From Leptotrichia sp. OH3620_COT-345 (lineage in GTDB: Bacteria > Fusobacteriota > Fusobacteriia > Fusobacteriales > Leptotrichiaceae): 64,000 nucleotides of DNA. The translations under genes and the position numbers were made by a program. Position 1 is the stretch's first letter. Each line of letters starts with the position of its first letter. Location: contig NZ_RQYW01000005.1 of the NCBI RefSeq assembly GCF_003932895.1, positions 62,001-126,000 of the forward strand, given 5' to 3'. Below the pieces are notes generated by a model. It did not search any database. It was not told where the DNA came from and saw only the letters and a program-made list of their open reading frames with translations. Shown piece after piece: positions 54,220-63,481 of the stretch.

Positions 54220-54780
54220 ATGAAAAAAACGGCAGTCCTAATATATAATTCATTTTGTAATTTTGAATTTAGTATATTATTGGAAATATCAGCAATGAAT
54301 AAAAAATCTATTACAGTTTTTTCCAAGGATATTTCTCCTATAAGAAGTGAAGAGGGAGCCCGATAAGAGAATATCTGAACTTGATATTAATGAATATAAT
54401 TCATTGATTTTGACAGGAGCCTATGATATAAGGGAAGCCATTGAAGATGATGAAATTATAAATTTTATTAAAAAATTTAACGTGGAAAGTTATGTCATAG
54501 GTGCTGTTTCTATAGCTCCGATATTACTTTTAAAAGCAGGAATTTTTAAAAAAAAATTCATAGCGGGAGTAAATAAAGAAGAACTGCATGAAGAAGGTTT
54601 TCTTGAAAAAGATCTTAAATATATGATAAACTGGAATGAAGCTTTGGAAAATCCAATGATTGAAGGATATATTAAGGACAAAAATATTATTACAGCTGTT
54701 TCTTATGGCTTTATAAATGGTCAATGGTTATTGCAAAAGAACTTGCTTTAAACGTAAATCCTAAGTCTTTCGGATTATAA
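54220..54780 (+). pseudogene. DJ-1/PfpI family gene with two frameshifts
   Basis: The first frame (ATG 54220, AAGGA upstream) reads MKKTAVLIYNSFCNFEFSIL to SEEGAR and stops at 54364-54366. The family sequence then continues one base out of frame as RISELDINEYNSLILTGAYD through VIGAVSIAPILLLKAGIFKKK to NGQW (about 54725). It returns to the first frame as VIAKELALNVNPKSFGL, ending at TAA 54778-54780. The elbow position of the fold reads AVSIA, with Ser where many DJ-1 relatives have Cys. Two opposite single-base shifts 360 bases apart break it. Restored length would be about 186 residues. Confidence 0.75.
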
Positions 54781-55044: not shown

Positions 55045-55707
55045 TTATATGTTCAAATTGTCCAGATTCTTAAAAAAGTCCATTTGTGCAGCTTCTACAT
55101 GTTTTTCACATAATTCTTTAATAGTTTCAATAGGAGTTTTATCATTTAAAATTAAATTTATAATATTTATATGTTCTTCTATGGCTTCTAATCTACGATT
55201 GTCAGGACCGTATAAAACTTTTCTTATACGTTCCAGATGATCATAAACCAGCGTCATCTGTTTTGAAAAAAAGAAGTTTCCACAATTTTCAGCAAAAAAA
55301 TATTTATATCCTCCATAAAGTTTATCAAATTCTGCTCCGCTTACATTATCTTTCCGTTCCATTTTTTCAAACTTTTTTCTAAAATCCAAAAGAGAAGATT
55401 TAAGTTCAGTCCTATCCAGAAATAAAATTGTCAGTTCCACTAAAAGAGGTTCGATTCTTGAACGAACTTGAAAAACATCTTTTATAAGTTTTAAATCTAT
55501 TTCGGTTACAGATACTGATTTTCTAGGATTAATAATAACAAAATTTTCATTTTCCAGTTGAGAAAGAGCTTCCTTTACGGGAGTTTTACTTATGGAAAGC
55601 TCTTCAGCTATTTTTCTTTCATGTATAATTTCCCTTTCTTTATATTCGTTGTTCATTATTTTACTTTTTATATATTCGTATGCTAATGTATCCAATTTTT
55701 TTTTCAT
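55045..55707 (-). CDS. GntR family regulator (FadR/FCD type)
   Basis: A 220-residue regulator. The N-terminal winged helix-turn-helix shows IIHERKIAEELSISKTPVKEALSQLENENFV (about 23-53); the C-terminal all-helical FCD ligand domain (about 75-210) binds small carboxylic acids in relatives, often with a metal. ATG 55707 is used because the promoter's expected start point near 55760 excludes the longer frame from 55776; AAGAG is 8 bases upstream. It is divergent from the FdrA-YlbE operon and very probably controls it in response to an operon metabolite. Confidence 0.88.
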   Translation of the reverse strand: MKKKLDTLAYEYIKSKIMNNEYKEREIIHERKIAEELSISKTPVKEALSQLENENFVIINPRKSVSVTEIDLKLIKDVFQVRSRIEPLLVELTILFLDRTELKSSLLDFRKKFEKMERKDNVSGAEFDKLYGGYKYFFAENCGNFFFSKQMTLVYDHLERIRKVLYGPDNRRLEAIEEHINIINLILNDKTPIETIKELCEKHVEAAQMDFFKNLDNLNI

Positions 55708-55766
55708 ATTTTGTACTCTTATAATGAGCTTCTCCTCTCCATATCCATATTTTTTTGAACAGTTAT

Positions 55767-55795
55767 AAGTTATCACAGCTTTATTATAATGTCAA
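55767..55795 (-). promoter_or_regulatory. Promoter of the gntR gene
   Basis: On the minus strand: TTGACA (55795-55790), 17 bases, TAACTT (55772-55767) preceded by TG-A. A perfect -35 and an extended -10. Confidence 0.65.
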
Positions 55796-55943: not shown

Positions 55944-55989
55944 AATAATAGAAAATGAATTTAAAATTATAAAATAAAGGAGGAGTAAA

Positions 55990-58989
55990 ATGCTTTATAC
56001 AGTATTAAAGGAAAACAGTTATCAGGATTCAATAAATCTGATGTTGTTGACAAATCATATCAGTATAATGAAAGGGATAAACAAAGTACAGGTTATGATG
56101 GGGACCGATGCCAATAAAGATATTTTCAACACTGCGGGACTTCTTTCAGAAGAAGCCGCAAAAGCAAAACCGAGTGATATGGTGGTAGTAATCGATACAG
56201 ACAATGAGTCGGTTGTGAAAGAAGCTTTGGAATCAATTGATAGATTTTTATCCGATTTATCTGTAAAAAAAGAAACAGGGATTCAGAAATCAGTAAGAAA
56301 TTGGTCACAGGTAAAAGAAGTAATGCCTGATGCCAATATGGCATTGATTTCAGTGCCGGGAATTTATGCTGCTGTGGAAATAGAGAATGCAATTGATAAT
56401 GGGTTACATGCTTTTGTTTTCAGTGATAATGTTCCAAAAAGCGAAGAAGTGAGATTGAAAAAAAAGGCACATGAAAAAGGACTTCTGGTGATGGGACCTG
56501 ATTGCGGAACAGGGATTATAAGTAATGTGCCTCTTGCTTTCACAAATGTTGTTCGTCCGGGAAATATAGGAATAGTCGGAGCTTCAGGAACAGGAATACA
56601 GGAAATTTCTACAATTATTGAAAAACTTGGAGGAGGAGTTATTCATGCAATTGGTACGGGAGGACGTGACTTGTCAACAGAAGTAGGAGCCGTAACTATG
56701 AAAGATGCTTTAGTGGGACTTGCACATCATGATCCGACAGATGTAATAGCAGTTGTTTCCAAGCCTCCTGCAAAAGAAGTTAAAGATGATGTAATACAGT
56801 TGTTACATTCACTAAAAAAACCCGTAGTTGCCATCTTCTTGGGAGAAAAGCCTGAATATCATGAAGGAAATGTTTATTTTGCTCATACATTGGAAGAATG
56901 TGCAAAAATTGCAACAGATCTTGCTAAAGGAGAAAAAGTCAAAGCAAATTATCAGAAGAAGCTTGATATAACTGCTCAGGACAATAGCATTTCAGGTAAA
57001 ACTGTAAAAGGATTATATTCAGGAGGAACTTTGGCATACGAGGCTGCAATGCTTGTAGGAGAAGCTTTGAAATTATCTTCGTCAGCAAAGGAAGAAGGAT
57101 ATATGCTGAAAACTGACGGATTTGAAATAATGGATTTAGGAGATGACATTTATACTCAGGGAAAACCTCATCCTATGATTGATCCGAGTGTGCGTATTGA
57201 AAAGCTTCGTGAATTTGGAGCAGATTCTAAAACAGGAATTATTTTGTTGGATGTAGTTTTAGGATACGGAGCACATGATGATATGGCAGGAGAACTAGCT
57301 CCGGTTATAAAAGAAATATTGAAAAAAGCTGAAGCTGAAAACAGAAAACTTTACGTAATCGGAACAGTGTGTGGAACAAAAGGAGATCCTCAAAATTACG
57401 AAAAATCTCAAAAAATTCTGGAAGAAGCAGGAATGCTTGTTAAAGAAAGTAATGCTGCTGCATTGAGATTGGCATTGAATTTAATGGGAACCGATATTGA
57501 TGAACCTGATAAAGAATTTAAAGAATATACAGGAAAAGTAAATGATTTACCTGGAATAAGTGGAGCAATAAGTGAGCTTCTTTCTACTAAACCTAGAGTT
57601 ATCAACATAGGAGTTGCAGGATTTGCTGAACCTGTAATACAGTATGGAGGAACTTGTACACAATTTGAATGGAAACCTATAGCAGGAGGAAACCAGAAAC
57701 TTATTAAAATTTTACAACAGCTAAAACATATGGAAAATCTTGAAAAAGAAAATGATATAGTAGTTGAAGCTATGAAAAATTCAGCTCCTTACTTAATAGA
57801 TGTCGTACCTGCACATACTGTAATACCGGAAATAAACGGAAAAGCACTTTTACATGCAGGATCGCCTATAAAGTATGAAGAAATGACAGGACCTATGCAA
57901 GGTTCATGCATCGGTGCCGCATTATTTGAAGGTTGGGCAAAAGATGAAGCTGAAGCACGAAAACTTTTAGAAACAGGCGGAGTGACATTTATCCCTTGTC
58001 ATCATGTGAAAGCTGTAGGACCTATGGGAGGGATAACTTCCGCAAATATGCCTGTACTTGTAGTTGAAAACAGACTTACAGGGAATCACTCTTACTGTAC
58101 ATTAAACGAAGGAATAGGAAAAGTCTTGCGTTTCGGTGCTTATTCCGAAGAAGTTGTAGACAGACTGCACTGGATGAAAGATGTATTAGGTCCTGTTTTA
58201 GGAAAAGCGGTAAGACAGGTTGAAGGCGGAGTAAACTTAAATGTAATCATTGCTAAAGCTATTACAATGGGTGATGAATTCCATCAACGTAATATTGCGG
58301 CAAGTTTACTGTTCCTGAAAGAAGTGACACCGCTTATAGTGACACTTGATATGGATGATAAAATGAAAAAAGATGTTATACAGTTTTTAGCAAATACAGA
58401 TCAGTTTTTTCTTAATATTATGATGGCGACAGGAAAAGCGGTTGTAGACGGAGCCCGTGTCAATAAAATGGGAACTATAGTTACAACTATGACACGTAAT
58501 GGAAAAGATTTCGGAATACGTGTGAGCGGTCTTGGAGATGAATGGTTTACTGCTCCTGTAAATACCCCTAAAGGACTTTTCTTTACAGGATTTACTCAAG
58601 ATGATGCAAATCCTGACATAGGAGACAGTGCAATTACTGAAACAGTAGGTGTAGGAGGAATGACAATGATAGCTGCTCCGGGAGTAACGAGATTTGTTGG
58701 AGCGGGAGGCTTCAAGGATGCTTTAAAAGTCAGTGATGAAATGTCTGAAATATGTACTACACATAACCCTAATTTTGCAATACCTACTTGGGATTTCAAA
58801 GGAGCACCTCTCGGAATAGATATAAGAAAAGTAGTTGAAACAGGAATTACTCCTATTATAAATACAGGAATAGCTCATAAAAATGCAGGAGTCGGACAAG
58901 TAGGAGCAGGAACTGTAAGAGCACCGTTAGCATGCTTTGAACAGGCATTAATAGCATATGCAAAACATATCGGTCTGGACATTGATTAA
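55990..58989 (+). CDS. FdrA-YlbE (DUF1116) fusion, probable oxamate carbamoyltransferase component
   Basis: A 999-residue protein joining two genes that are separate in E. coli (fdrA and ylbE, now allF and allG). Residues 1 to about 515 are FdrA: a succinyl-CoA-synthetase-like fold with GNIGIVGASGTGIQEIS (191-207), IGTGGRDLS (221-229), SKPPAKEV and GLYSGGTLAYEA (341-352). A short linker (about 505-530) leads into the DUF1116 half (about 533-999), with NIGVAGFAEP, PAHTVIPEINGKALLHAGSPIKYEEMTGPM (in pieces), PCHHVKAVGPMGG and GNHSYCTLNEGIGKVLRFG. In E. coli the FdrA, YlbE and YlbF products are reported together as the oxalurate/oxamate carbamoyltransferase of allantoin use. No stop or frameshift at the join. 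GGAGGAG precedes ATG 55990. Confidence 0.88.
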   Translation: MLYTVLKENSYQDSINLMLLTNHISIMKGINKVQVMMGTDANKDIFNTAGLLSEEAAKAKPSDMVVVIDTDNESVVKEALESIDRFLSDLSVKKETGIQKSVRNWSQVKEVMPDANMALISVPGIYAAVEIENAIDNGLHAFVFSDNVPKSEEVRLKKKAHEKGLLVMGPDCGTGIISNVPLAFTNVVRPGNIGIVGASGTGIQEISTIIEKLGGGVIHAIGTGGRDLSTEVGAVTMKDALVGLAHHDPTDVIAVVSKPPAKEVKDDVIQLLHSLKKPVVAIFLGEKPEYHEGNVYFAHTLEECAKIATDLAKGEKVKANYQKKLDITAQDNSISGKTVKGLYSGGTLAYEAAMLVGEALKLSSSAKEEGYMLKTDGFEIMDLGDDIYTQGKPHPMIDPSVRIEKLREFGADSKTGIILLDVVLGYGAHDDMAGELAPVIKEILKKAEAENRKLYVIGTVCGTKGDPQNYEKSQKILEEAGMLVKESNAAALRLALNLMGTDIDEPDKEFKEYTGKVNDLPGISGAISELLSTKPRVINIGVAGFAEPVIQYGGTCTQFEWKPIAGGNQKLIKILQQLKHMENLEKENDIVVEAMKNSAPYLIDVVPAHTVIPEINGKALLHAGSPIKYEEMTGPMQGSCIGAALFEGWAKDEAEARKLLETGGVTFIPCHHVKAVGPMGGITSANMPVLVVENRLTGNHSYCTLNEGIGKVLRFGAYSEEVVDRLHWMKDVLGPVLGKAVRQVEGGVNLNVIIAKAITMGDEFHQRNIAASLLFLKEVTPLIVTLDMDDKMKKDVIQFLANTDQFFLNIMMATGKAVVDGARVNKMGTIVTTMTRNGKDFGIRVSGLGDEWFTAPVNTPKGLFFTGFTQDDANPDIGDSAITETVGVGGMTMIAAPGVTRFVGAGGFKDALKVSDEMSEICTTHNPNFAIPTWDFKGAPLGIDIRKVVETGITPIINTGIAHKNAGVGQVGAGTVRAPLACFEQALIAYAKHIGLDID

Positions 58990-59780
58990 TGGCGGAATTA
59001 TATCGAAAATACAAAGATGATAAAGAAACAGGGAGTATCAGTAAGCTGGTACTCCTATATCTGAAAAAGTATAATACAGGATATATTCACAGTGTGTTTA
59101 ATCATTCTCTAAATATACGGTTTGGTGAAAATTTAATTCATATTTCAGGAGAAAACAGGGGATTAGTGAGTTTCGGGTGTTCCATATCGGAAAAGAAAGT
59201 AAAAGAACTTATATTAAATGTTGATATAGATAATATTGTAATGAAAAAAGGGGAAAGTTTGCTTTTTTATAAGCGGTCGGGAATTGAAAAATTAAATCTT
59301 TCAGGATTAAAGACAATAAATTTAGAAATCAAAAATATAAAAAAATCAGAAGGAATATTGAAAAAAATATTCGAATATCTGAAAAATATAGATTTTAATC
59401 AGAAAACAGGAATAAAAACAGATAAAGTTATAAAATATTTACAAAACGGAATTACGACGGAAAGCCAGAAATATTTAACAGGAAGAGGAAAAGGACTTAC
59501 TCCAAGTGGTGATGATATTTTACTCGGATATGGTTTAGTATCCTGTATATATGTTGAAAATGTCAAACTGATATATGGGGATTTGACTACAGATATAAGT
59601 AGACAGTATTTTGATGCATTTAACAGAGGCTATGTAAATCAAACTTTATTTGAATTATTTTCCGGAAATATTGAAAATTCAGTTTCAAATATTACTAAAA
59701 TAGGGCATACTTCAGGATATGACATATTATTCGGAATTTTTTTGGGAATAAAAAATCTTTTGGAAAAATGGAGGAAATAA
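58989..59780 (+). CDS. DUF2877 (YlbF/AllH-like) protein
   Basis: A 263-residue protein. The DUF2877 signature is GRGKGLTPSGDDILLGYGL (about 163-181); the C-terminal helix GHTSGYDILFGIFLGIK is also conserved. In E. coli the homologue YlbF works with FdrA and YlbE. ATG 58989 overlaps the stop of the fusion gene (TAATG), so the products are made in coupled amounts, as expected for subunits of one enzyme. The N-terminal 100 residues are less conserved. Confidence 0.85.
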   Translation: MAELYRKYKDDKETGSISKLVLLYLKKYNTGYIHSVFNHSLNIRFGENLIHISGENRGLVSFGCSISEKKVKELILNVDIDNIVMKKGESLLFYKRSGIEKLNLSGLKTINLEIKNIKKSEGILKKIFEYLKNIDFNQKTGIKTDKVIKYLQNGITTESQKYLTGRGKGLTPSGDDILLGYGLVSCIYVENVKLIYGDLTTDISRQYFDAFNRGYVNQTLFELFSGNIENSVSNITKIGHTSGYDILFGIFLGIKNLLEKWRK

Positions 59781-59781
59781 G

Positions 59782-61050
59782 ATGAGCAGTATGTTGGAAA
59801 AACGATATAAAGCGATGAACGTATCGGAGCGTTATTGGTGGAAAGTAGTGGCATTATGTTTTGTAGGATGGATTTTAATGTATGCTGACAGAACAATTTT
59901 AAATCCTGTTATGGGAAAAATAGCAGAGCAATTTAACTTAAGTAATACTCAGTTGGGAGCTCTTAACAGTGTATTTTTCCTGACTTATGCAATAATGCAG
60001 ATTCCTTTCGGGATAGCGGGAGATATTATAGGAAGAAGAATTGTAATTACACTTGGATTTATATTATTTGGAGTAGGTACATTTTTAAGCGGAATAGCAA
60101 GTGGAATAGGGATTTTAATGATTTATCGTGCTATAACGGGAATAGGTGAAGGAGCATATTATGGACCTCAGTATGCATTATCAGGAGAGGCGATACCGGC
60201 TAAAAGTTTGACTTTGGGAACAGCTATAATAAATAGCGGTATGGCATTTGGAACTTCGGGAGGATATCTTCTTTCAAGTTATTTAGTTCTTGAAAAGGGA
60301 AATCACTGGAGTTTACCATTTTTCATTATGTCGGTTCCTACTATTATAATAGGGATAATGTTTATGTTTTTAAAAGAAAGAGTTATAAAGCCAGAAGATG
60401 CTGACAAAAAGAAAGAAGAAGTCAATAAAGAGGAAACTGTAAAAGCTAAAAAATCCGGATTGTCAGTATTTAAGAATAAAAACTTGTTATGTGCATTCCT
60501 GTTACTTTTCTGTTCAATTTATGCAAATTTTGTAATACTTACATGGTTACCTAAGTTTTTACAGGCTGAAAGAGGATTTGAAGGGACAAGTGTCGGATTT
60601 ATAGCTTCATTGGTTCCATGGGCTTCAGTACCGGGAGCATTGATAATTTCAAGACTGTCAGATAAGCTTAAAAAGACAAAATTGTTTGTTTTCTCTTTAG
60701 TTCCTTTGGCATTAATTTCCACATTCGGAATGGCGTTTGTAACAGATAGGGGATTACTCATATTTATGCTTATATTATACGGATTAACGGGAAAATTGGC
60801 ATTGGATCCTATATTAGTAGCGTATGTAACGAAAAATTCTCCTAAAGAAGCCTTGGGAACAGCTTTAAGTGCATACAATTTTATAGGTATGTCGGCAGCG
60901 ATTACAGCACCTATCGTAACAGGATGGATAGCGGATAAGTTCGGTTCAATGCAAGCAGGATTTTATCTTGCAGCAGTTCTTTTACTTGTAGGTATGTTTA
61001 TATTCAGTGCAGCAAGTGAAAGTGGAAGTCAGGAAAGTGTTAAAGCATAG
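59782..61050 (+). CDS. MFS transporter (anion:cation symporter-like)
   Basis: A 422-residue carrier with twelve membrane helices and a cytosolic loop of charged residues in the middle (about 205-230). The MFS loop 2-3 motif reads GIAGDIIGRRIV, after YADRTILNPVMGKIAEQFNLS and LGALNSVFFLTYAIMQIPFG, the pattern of the ACS family that moves carboxylate anions. GGAGG precedes ATG 59782, 2 bases after the DUF2877 gene. Its place in the operon suggests import of a ureido acid or related organic anion; the substrate is inferred only. Confidence 0.85.
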   Translation: MSSMLEKRYKAMNVSERYWWKVVALCFVGWILMYADRTILNPVMGKIAEQFNLSNTQLGALNSVFFLTYAIMQIPFGIAGDIIGRRIVITLGFILFGVGTFLSGIASGIGILMIYRAITGIGEGAYYGPQYALSGEAIPAKSLTLGTAIINSGMAFGTSGGYLLSSYLVLEKGNHWSLPFFIMSVPTIIIGIMFMFLKERVIKPEDADKKKEEVNKEETVKAKKSGLSVFKNKNLLCAFLLLFCSIYANFVILTWLPKFLQAERGFEGTSVGFIASLVPWASVPGALIISRLSDKLKKTKLFVFSLVPLALISTFGMAFVTDRGLLIFMLILYGLTGKLALDPILVAYVTKNSPKEALGTALSAYNFIGMSAAITAPIVTGWIADKFGSMQAGFYLAAVLLLVGMFIFSAASESGSQESVKA

Positions 61051-61111: not shown

Positions 61112-62179
61112 ATGAGTGATGTAGTTATAGTATCGCCAAAGGAATTACACAATCTTATTCAAAATAAATTGGAAAAAGCGGGATTGAAATCGGAACATGC
61201 AGATGAAGTGGCAAGGCATTTGGTATTTGCCGACAGCTGCGGTATTCATTCACATGGGGCTGTCCGTGTAGATTATTATGCTGAAAGAATAGCAAAAAAA
61301 GGGGTTACTATAGAACCGGAAATGTATTTTGAAAAAACGGGACCGAGTACAGGGATTTTCCATGGAGATAATGCAATTGGACAATATGTTGCCAATGAGG
61401 CATTGAAATATGCCATAGAGATGGCAAAAGAAACGGGAGTATCTGTAGTTGGAGTTTCAAAATTAAGTCATAGTGGAACCATGGCTTACTATTTAGAAGA
61501 AATTACAGCAAATGACCTTATAGGTATTTCTATCTGTCAATCAGACCCTATGGTAGTACCTTTTGGCGGAAGAGAACCTTATTACGGAACAAATCCTATA
61601 GGATTTGGAGCACCGTCTGCCGGGAAATTACCTATTATATTTGATATGGCAACTTCCGTTCAGGCATGGGGGAAAATTCTGGATGCCCGTTCAAAAAATC
61701 TTGAAATTCCTGATACATGGGCAGTGGATAGAAGAGGTGTACCTACTACAAATCCTCAAGATGTGGGAGCGTTATTACCTATTTCAGGACCGAAAGGATA
61801 CGGTTTGATGATGATGGTAGATATTCTTTCAGGATTAATGTTAGGATTGCCTTTCGGAGGACATGTATCGTCAATGTATGATAAAATGTCTGAAGGAAGA
61901 GATTTAGGTCACACATTTATAATAATTGATCCTGCGAAATTTATGGACATAAATAAATTTAAAGAAAATATAGCAAAAACCCAGGAAGAACTTCACAATA
62001 TTCCTGCAGCTGAAGGATTTAAACAAGTTTATTATCCGGGAGAAACATCTCAACTTACATATGAAAAATATCAGAAAGAAGGAATTCCTGTTGAAAAGGG
62101 GATATATGAATATTTAATTAGCGACATAGTCCATTACGATAAATTCGGAGGACAGAGTGCTTTTGCAAGTAAAAAATAA
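61112..62179 (+). CDS. allD: Ureidoglycolate dehydrogenase (AllD-like)
   Basis: An NAD-dependent enzyme of the malate/L-lactate dehydrogenase type, 355 residues. It follows E. coli AllD closely along its length: ADSCGIHSHGAVRVDYYAERI, SICQSDPMVVPFGG, YYGTNPIGF, FDMATSVQAWGKILDARS, IPDTWAVDRRGVPTTNP, GPKGYGLMMMVDILSG and a final YLISD. Active-site residues His46, His48, Arg52 and His120 match AllD His42, His44, Arg48 and His116 by alignment from memory. AllD oxidises ureidoglycolate to oxalurate, the substrate of the FdrA-YlbE-YlbF enzyme, so the operon forms a two-step route. GAGGTGAG precedes ATG 61112. Confidence 0.88.
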   Translation: MSDVVIVSPKELHNLIQNKLEKAGLKSEHADEVARHLVFADSCGIHSHGAVRVDYYAERIAKKGVTIEPEMYFEKTGPSTGIFHGDNAIGQYVANEALKYAIEMAKETGVSVVGVSKLSHSGTMAYYLEEITANDLIGISICQSDPMVVPFGGREPYYGTNPIGFGAPSAGKLPIIFDMATSVQAWGKILDARSKNLEIPDTWAVDRRGVPTTNPQDVGALLPISGPKGYGLMMMVDILSGLMLGLPFGGHVSSMYDKMSEGRDLGHTFIIIDPAKFMDINKFKENIAKTQEELHNIPAAEGFKQVYYPGETSQLTYEKYQKEGIPVEKGIYEYLISDIVHYDKFGGQSAFASKK

Positions 62180-62221: not shown

Positions 62222-63481
62222 ATGCCTGAAAATAAAAAAATGTTTCATTTGTCATTAACTAATCAGATATTGATAGCTACTTTTGGAGGTATTATATTCG
62301 GAGGTATTGTTGGAGAATGGTCCTCAAATTTAAAGGTGTTTGGAGATATATTTTTAAGACTTATCCAAATGTCTGTTATAATGTTAGTTATGTCTGCCGT
62401 TATAGTAGCAGTAGGTAGAGGAAACAGCAGTGATACTGGAAAAATGAGTATTCATACTTTTAAATGGATCATATTTTTTACTCTTATTTCGGCTTTTATG
62501 GGAGCGGGACTTGCATATCTCATTCAGCCCGGAACAGGAGTTGCACATATGACTGAAGTAGGTAAAAATGTAACAACTGCGGGTCCGATTCAGGACAGCT
62601 CACTAAAAGATACAATACTTGCTTTTTTTACGACAAATGTATTTTCAGCTATGGCAAGCAGTGCAATGGTACCATGTATAATATTTTCGCTGTTTTTTGG
62701 AACAGCAATGTCTCAATATATAAAAGATACAGGAAAAACTATTATTTTAGACTGGGTTACGGCTATTAATGAAATTATAGTTAATATAATAAAAAATGTA
62801 ATGAAAATATCACCTATAGGAATATTTTGTCTATTAGCGGATGTGACAGGAAGTAAAGGATTTACAGTAGTAATACCTATGATAAAATTTCTTGGGATAT
62901 TAATTATAGGAGGGATTCTCCAATTAATAATTTATGGTTTTATGACAGCTTTCATATGTAAAGTAAGTCCGTTTAAAATGCCTAAGAAATTTGCCAAAAT
63001 GTCTATTATAGCTCTTACAACTACATCAAGTGCCATAACCCTTCCTACAAAAATGGAAGATTCGGTGACAAAATTCGGCGTCAGCAGAAAAGTAGCCGAT
63101 TTTACAGGGCCGATAACAATGTCTATGAATTCATCAGGCTGGGCATTATGTAATGTCACTGCAATATTTTTCATGGCTCAATTTTCAGGAGTACATCTTA
63201 CAACTTATCAGATGGTAATGGCTGTAATACTTTCCTGTTTGATGTGTATGGGTAGTGTTGTTGTACCGGGGGGAGCAATTATAGTTTATACATTTTTAGC
63301 AACTTCTATGGGGCTACCTCTTGACAGTATAGCTGTTCTTATAGGAATAGACTGGTTCTCAGGAATGTTCAGAACGTTAAATAATGTTGATATAGATGTA
63401 TATGTCGCTATGCTTGTGGCAAATAAAATAAATGAATTTGACAGAGATGTGTATAATGATCTTAAAATTGTAGAATATTAA
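62222..63481 (+). CDS. Dicarboxylate/amino acid:cation symporter family (DAACS) carrier
   Basis: A 419-residue carrier of the GltP/DctA fold with about eight helices and two hairpin loops. Hairpin 1 reads TTTSSAITLPTKM; the C-terminal helix reads DWFSGMFRTLNNVDIDV. Compared with the aspartate transporter GltPh, Arg397, Thr398, Asn401 and Asp405 have counterparts, but Asp394, which holds the substrate amino group, is Gly, and the NMDGT motif is NSSGW. A substrate without an amino group is therefore likely. GGAGAG precedes ATG 62222. Last gene of the operon; an organic acid linked to the pathway is the probable cargo. Confidence 0.85.
   Translation: MPENKKMFHLSLTNQILIATFGGIIFGGIVGEWSSNLKVFGDIFLRLIQMSVIMLVMSAVIVAVGRGNSSDTGKMSIHTFKWIIFFTLISAFMGAGLAYLIQPGTGVAHMTEVGKNVTTAGPIQDSSLKDTILAFFTTNVFSAMASSAMVPCIIFSLFFGTAMSQYIKDTGKTIILDWVTAINEIIVNIIKNVMKISPIGIFCLLADVTGSKGFTVVIPMIKFLGILIIGGILQLIIYGFMTAFICKVSPFKMPKKFAKMSIIALTTTSSAITLPTKMEDSVTKFGVSRKVADFTGPITMSMNSSGWALCNVTAIFFMAQFSGVHLTTYQMVMAVILSCLMCMGSVVVPGGAIIVYTFLATSMGLPLDSIAVLIGIDWFSGMFRTLNNVDIDVYVAMLVANKINEFDRDVYNDLKIVEY

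Follow-up and report, generated by a model that had tools for sequence, protein, structure and literature searches.

Does the long open frame near the end of this stretch of DNA encode one protein made from two, and if so, where do the two parts meet and what might the joint chain do? The window, that is, the whole 64,000-nucleotide stretch of Leptotrichia sp. OH3620_COT-345 DNA that was analysed, holds an open frame on its plus strand that runs from an ATG at 55990 to a stop at 58989 and encodes 999 aa with no internal stops. The earlier note had read this frame as spanning FdrA and YlbE, and full-length matches to both families bear this out. The NCBIfam FdrA model NF004760 matched from end to end (positions 1-555 against residues 1-579; 693 bits, cut-off 433), as did the Pfam AllG model PF06545 (positions 1-215 against residues 665-880; 322.9 bits, cut-off 27), and PDB chains 3dmy (FdrA) and 3clq (DUF1116) matched residues 100-579 and 582-990 of the fused chain, respectively. 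Thus, the 999-residue chain contains AllF (FdrA) and AllG (YlbE, DUF1116), each in full, and the fusion is one of two complete proteins.

The layout of the chain was derived from an alignment with AllF and AllG and with YahF and YahG of E. coli, and comprises the following features:

55977..55983, + strand: ribosome-binding site AAGGAGG, seen in the sequence 6 nt ahead of the ATG of the fused gene
55990..57456, + strand: AllF (FdrA) body, residues 1-489, with CoA_binding (190-284) and Ligase_CoA (342-496) folds
57457..57585, + strand: variable linker within AllF, residues 490-532, poorly conserved
57586..57729, + strand: module M, residues 533-580, motif INxGxxxF...W.P.AGGN..L..L
57730..57759, + strand: tether between M and AllG, residues 581-590 (10 residues), the true join
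57760..58980, + strand: AllG (YlbE, DUF1116) body, residues 591-997, placed by Pfam, PDB and alignment

In E. coli, and also in genus g9 of the window's own family, allF stops precisely where M ends, with allG starting 9-19 nt further on. Since the split allF ends there, the join lies at residue 580/581 (nt 57729/57730), and the tether that follows it measures 10-15 residues in all fused relatives. The earlier note had instead placed a linker near residues 505-530 and had taken membership of that linker in only one of the two families to speak against a fusion. Those residues do belong to one family only, as a variable stretch inside AllF between the CoA-ligase body and the conserved module at 533-580, which relocates the join and leaves the fusion standing; residues 501-532 are the least conserved part of the chain (dN/dS 0.65 versus G002 and 0.095 versus G001, two genomes of the same genus). 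Because of this shift of the border, sequencing reads over 57500-57620, as had been proposed, would miss the join.

A frame of this length could also be an artefact of assembly, sequencing or framing, or the read-through of two separate genes: E. coli and genus g9 keep AllF and AllG apart, and a GC-rich genome can hold a long open frame that only looks like a fusion (L181). However, the same fused frame is present in four independent assemblies, those of the window, of two congeners (G001 and G002, the latter one contig of 2.29 Mb) and of G005, from a different genus of the family, consistent with the earlier view that there is no sequencing join. Furthermore, the alignment with congeners covers 999 of 999 codons with zero gaps, dN/dS between congeners is low (0.033 and 0.086 overall; 0.022 and 0.045 in module M, before the join), and at 66 loci from several phyla the module is in frame with the tether and AllG. 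The gapless alignment and the low dN/dS argue that the join is translated and selected, and we regard an artefact as exceedingly improbable. As judged from these patterns of substitution, the fused gene is a translated and selected single chain. A second, internal start that would release free AllG was also considered and appears unlikely: the congeners have Ile or Leu in place of Met 582, and no Shine-Dalgarno-like motif precedes this Met at the usual distance.

The piece at the joint is less expected and more interesting than the fusion, which is fairly ordinary. Module M measures about 48 residues and over 196 loci has the core I/V-N-x-G...F...W-x-P...(A)GG. Good matches to it were limited to the C-terminus of FdrA and to 3dmy, and none of the Pfam models exceeded its cut-off on M. 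Four arrangements of its coding sequence occur: at the end of AllF (F-M/G, as in AllFG), at the start of the G protein (F/M-G, as in YahFG), within the fused chain (F-M-G), and as a gene of its own (F/M/G). The last arrangement, in which a gene of 57-61 aa lies between AllF-like and AllG-like genes, was found in several Clostridia, at these loci:

L102, L103, L104, L106, L107, L108, L110, L121, L122, L123: stand-alone M genes in Clostridia

A further stand-alone M gene, in a genome of the Pseudomonadota (L238:7547-7735), lies in the order AllH, M, G, F, carbamate kinase, and this gene order indicates that M is separable from F. The chain can thus be described as F-M-G, with M as an autonomous docking domain that would join the CoA-ligase-like and DUF1116 halves while its gene borders move; we consider this description about equally likely to hold or to fail. 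M would then be a small domain between the halves, which may contact each other through it, a proposal that comes from sequence comparison. If it is correct, M would be an essential and easily missed subunit, and the fused form would show how the pieces are ordered in all others. The moving module probably marks where the halves meet, and it draws attention to a small protein that may go unannotated.

We next considered how common the fusion is. The earlier note had implied that it is rare, a view that the wider comparison does not sustain, as the fusion is widespread and recurrent and is carried by many bacteria of the gut and many lactic acid bacteria; many lactobacilli and enterococci carry the order fused AllFG-AllH-MFS-kinase-SDF. 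Among the best 80 named loci, a set biased towards the query, 54 were fused (one with a frameshift) and 26 were split. When genomes were instead drawn evenly per taxon, with the seeded genome of each draw excluded and counts taken among the family-bearing genomes, the fused form was found in 2 of 18 Clostridia, 2 of 32 Bacilli, none of 14 Pseudomonadota, none of 42 Chloroflexota and none of 42 Actinomycetota, the last draw having yielded two long frames (917 and 857 aa) from genomes in which long open frames are common. Thus, the fused form is a minority in even draws. A candidate fused form in an actinomycetal genome (G838, an open frame of 1011 aa) was rejected, since its upstream part is a GC-rich open frame with no AllF match.

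Trees of the G half and the F half agreed: the AllF/AllG clade holds F-M/G and fused forms only, and within it a main fused clade of 31 rows had a support of 99 in both trees. The fused forms of Paenibacillus radicibacter and of a Lachnospiraceae group lie apart from this clade, beside split relatives. A single origin of all fused forms was rejected, as the AU test excluded one fused clade (p-AU 7e-7), so that the fusion must have been gained or lost three or more times. The window protein groups with fused proteins of Bacillota, away from the split version in genus g9 of its own family, which suggests gene transfer. Two loci from this comparison may be recorded: a Candidatus Adiutrix MAG (L090:997-4029) has a fused AllF-AllG with a frameshift in the F half and AllD, AllH and carbamate kinase around it, and Bacillus chungangensis has two allFG sets (L066 and L054) about 25 kb apart on the same contig. 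The fused protein is already public under the name 'acyl-CoA synthetase FdrA'. No publication describing the fusion or module M was found in a search that covered few subscription papers, a weak sign of novelty.

The genes around the fused gene bear on what the chain may do. They are arranged as follows:

55045..55776, - strand: GntR/FCD-family regulator, divergent from the operon (Pfam GntR and FCD)
58989..59780, + strand: AllH (DUF2877), third subunit of oxamic transcarbamylase (PF11392, 55.6 bits, cut-off 25)
59782..61050, + strand: MFS transporter (PF07690; no listed NCBIfam model over cut-off)
61112..62179, + strand: AllD, ureidoglycolate dehydrogenase (TIGR03175, 582 bits, equivalog cut-off 496)
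62222..63481, + strand: SDF-family dicarboxylate/amino acid:cation symporter (PF00375, 311 bits)

The ATG of AllH overlaps the stop of the fused gene by one base; AllH is diverged, with 30% identity to E. coli AllH over 126 aa. The same divergent regulator gene adjoins the fused gene in G001, G002 and G005. An arcC-family carbamate kinase over cut-off is encoded elsewhere in the host (contig C1:112700-113620), unlinked to the operon.

In E. coli, AllF, AllG and AllH together constitute oxamic transcarbamylase (OXTCase), a recently assigned enzyme of purine breakdown that is unlike other transcarbamylases; the activity was measured on purified AllFGH, and conversion of allantoin to oxamate required all three genes (PMC11326118). 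This enzyme and the presence of AllH beside the fused gene, in the window and in other genomes, support the claim of the earlier note that the two halves act together. Consistent with such a role, the AllG half has 63% identity with AllG of E. coli (over 415 aa) versus 43% with YahG, and the AllF half is 42% identical to AllF versus 37% to YahF. In separate trees, both halves fell in the clade that holds E. coli AllF and AllG and excludes YahF and YahG, with an SH-aLRT of 100. Thus, AllF and AllG are full length, AllH is adjacent, both halves belong to the AllF/AllG clade, and AllD and a carbamate kinase are encoded in the genome, as for an OXTCase; the features of the YahFG type, a border before M and a G half in the YahG clade, are not seen. 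We therefore consider it likely that the window protein is the fused AllF-AllG chain of an OXTCase that, with AllH, would convert oxalurate and phosphate to oxamate and carbamoyl phosphate, both its catalytic activity and its substrate being predicted.

The annotation 'acyl-CoA synthetase FdrA' and the CoA_binding and Ligase_CoA folds would instead fit a chain in which an acyl-CoA (oxamate-CoA) synthetase is joined to a partner of unknown function, and FdrA was put forward as a CoA-ligase by the CanOE authors (PMC3364942). However, a Pfam scan of the fused chain returned only CoA_binding, Ligase_CoA and AllG, with no match to the ATP-grasp domain of the ADP-forming type of acyl-CoA synthetase; furthermore, purified AllFGH is a transcarbamylase, and the E. 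coli conversion needs all three genes. We thus hold a synthetase to be very unlikely, and 'acyl-CoA synthetase FdrA' genes, including fused ones of about 1000 aa, are better read as encoding carbamoyltransferase subunits.

The substrate is the less secure part of the assignment. The AllB, AllC and AllE set of the anaerobic allantoin pathway of E. coli was not found in the host: profile searches of the genome detected neither AllC nor AllE, and no true allantoinase exceeded the cut-off (best 115.8 versus 357.9 bits). The E. coli allantoin route is therefore not run in the host, so that either the substrate is external or the enzyme may act on another ureido acid. A carbamoyltransferase of the same family that uses a ureido acid different from oxalurate, perhaps like the YahEFG paralogues, would fit the location of relatives beside other catabolic genes (on Klebsiella plasmids and in Clostridia) and the many fused cassettes with no AllC, AllE or AllD within 5 kb. 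However, both halves lie in the AllF/AllG clade, away from YahF and YahG, and an AllD over the equivalog cut-off is encoded in the operon, and we consider another substrate unlikely, though less so than a synthetase. With oxalurate as the substrate, the gene content suggests that the host ferments imported ureidoglycolate or oxalurate. Ureidoglycolate or oxalurate would be taken up via the MFS or the SDF transporter, AllD would make oxalurate from ureidoglycolate, and the fused AllF-AllG with AllH would carry out the phosphorolysis to oxamate and carbamoyl phosphate. Oxamate would be excreted as the end product, and the carbamate kinase encoded elsewhere would turn carbamoyl phosphate into ATP, ammonia and CO2.

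The earlier note had also treated the fusion as directly showing a fixed 1:1 complex. In this organism the ratio is 1:1 by construction: adjacent allF and allG would have become one gene, with the border precisely where M ends and a tether of some 10 residues that holds AllF and AllG at that ratio. The fusion makes contact between the halves likely, but it demonstrates neither that contact nor the stoichiometry of the split form. In E. coli, AllF and AllG appeared in similar amounts on SDS-PAGE, and dimers of each were predicted by the authors of that study (PMC11326118). Our PDB search returned FdrA and DUF1116 as separate entries only and none for AllH. For enzymology and structural work, a natural single-chain AllF-AllG offers a target of simple stoichiometry.

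Compared with allFGH of E. coli, the window keeps all three families and their order, AllD is again close by, and the AllF of E. coli likewise carries M at its end. In contrast, E. coli AllF and AllG are encoded by separate genes 9 nt apart, whereas here they form one polypeptide; allK lies inside the E. coli operon but the kinase is unlinked here; and AllC, AllE and allantoinase, present there, are absent here. YahF and YahG of E. coli, which occur with YahE and YahI as paralogous AllF-, AllG-, AllH- and carbamate-kinase-like proteins, are likewise separate genes, have their border before M, which starts YahG, and lie outside the AllF/AllG clade. A closer counterpart is found in Enterococcus faecalis (WP_002355249.1, NZ_CP143580.1), whose fused AllF-M-AllG is 64% identical over its full length and is likewise followed by DUF2877, MFS, SDF and AllD genes. 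Unlike the window, however, the E. faecalis cassette (fused fdrA-DUF2877-MFS-arcC-SDF-allD) has arcC in the operon and AllD last, and its nearby regulator is of the PucR family whereas that of the window is GntR/FCD. Genus g9 (L015-L017) encodes AllF with a terminal M, AllG and AllH in order from split genes, with carbamate kinase and a YahJ-like amidohydrolase adjacent, whereas the genus of the window has the fused form with AllD. The split g9 proteins were not sister to the fused ones in either tree, which suggests that the two sets were acquired separately.

Several other neighbourhoods were observed. An IncFII conjugative plasmid of Klebsiella pneumoniae (L242, NZ_CP023489.1) carries a ring-opening amidohydrolase, a nucleobase symporter, DUF2877, FdrA, DUF1116 and arcC, with IS26 downstream, and this cassette has matches of the same identity in plasmids of Citrobacter, Enterobacter and Leclercia. 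Clostridial AllH-F-M-G operons at L233, L234, L236 and L237, of whose neighbours the scan covered some, occur with a PucR regulator, a putative cyclase (PF04199) or a class III CoA-transferase, a context that differs from allantoin genes. Finally, a DJ-1/PfpI-family gene of the window (54224-54751) is broken: relative to G001 (L012), an 11-base gap near 54358 shifts the frame, and a 134-aa frame with a GTG start at 54347 is its remnant.
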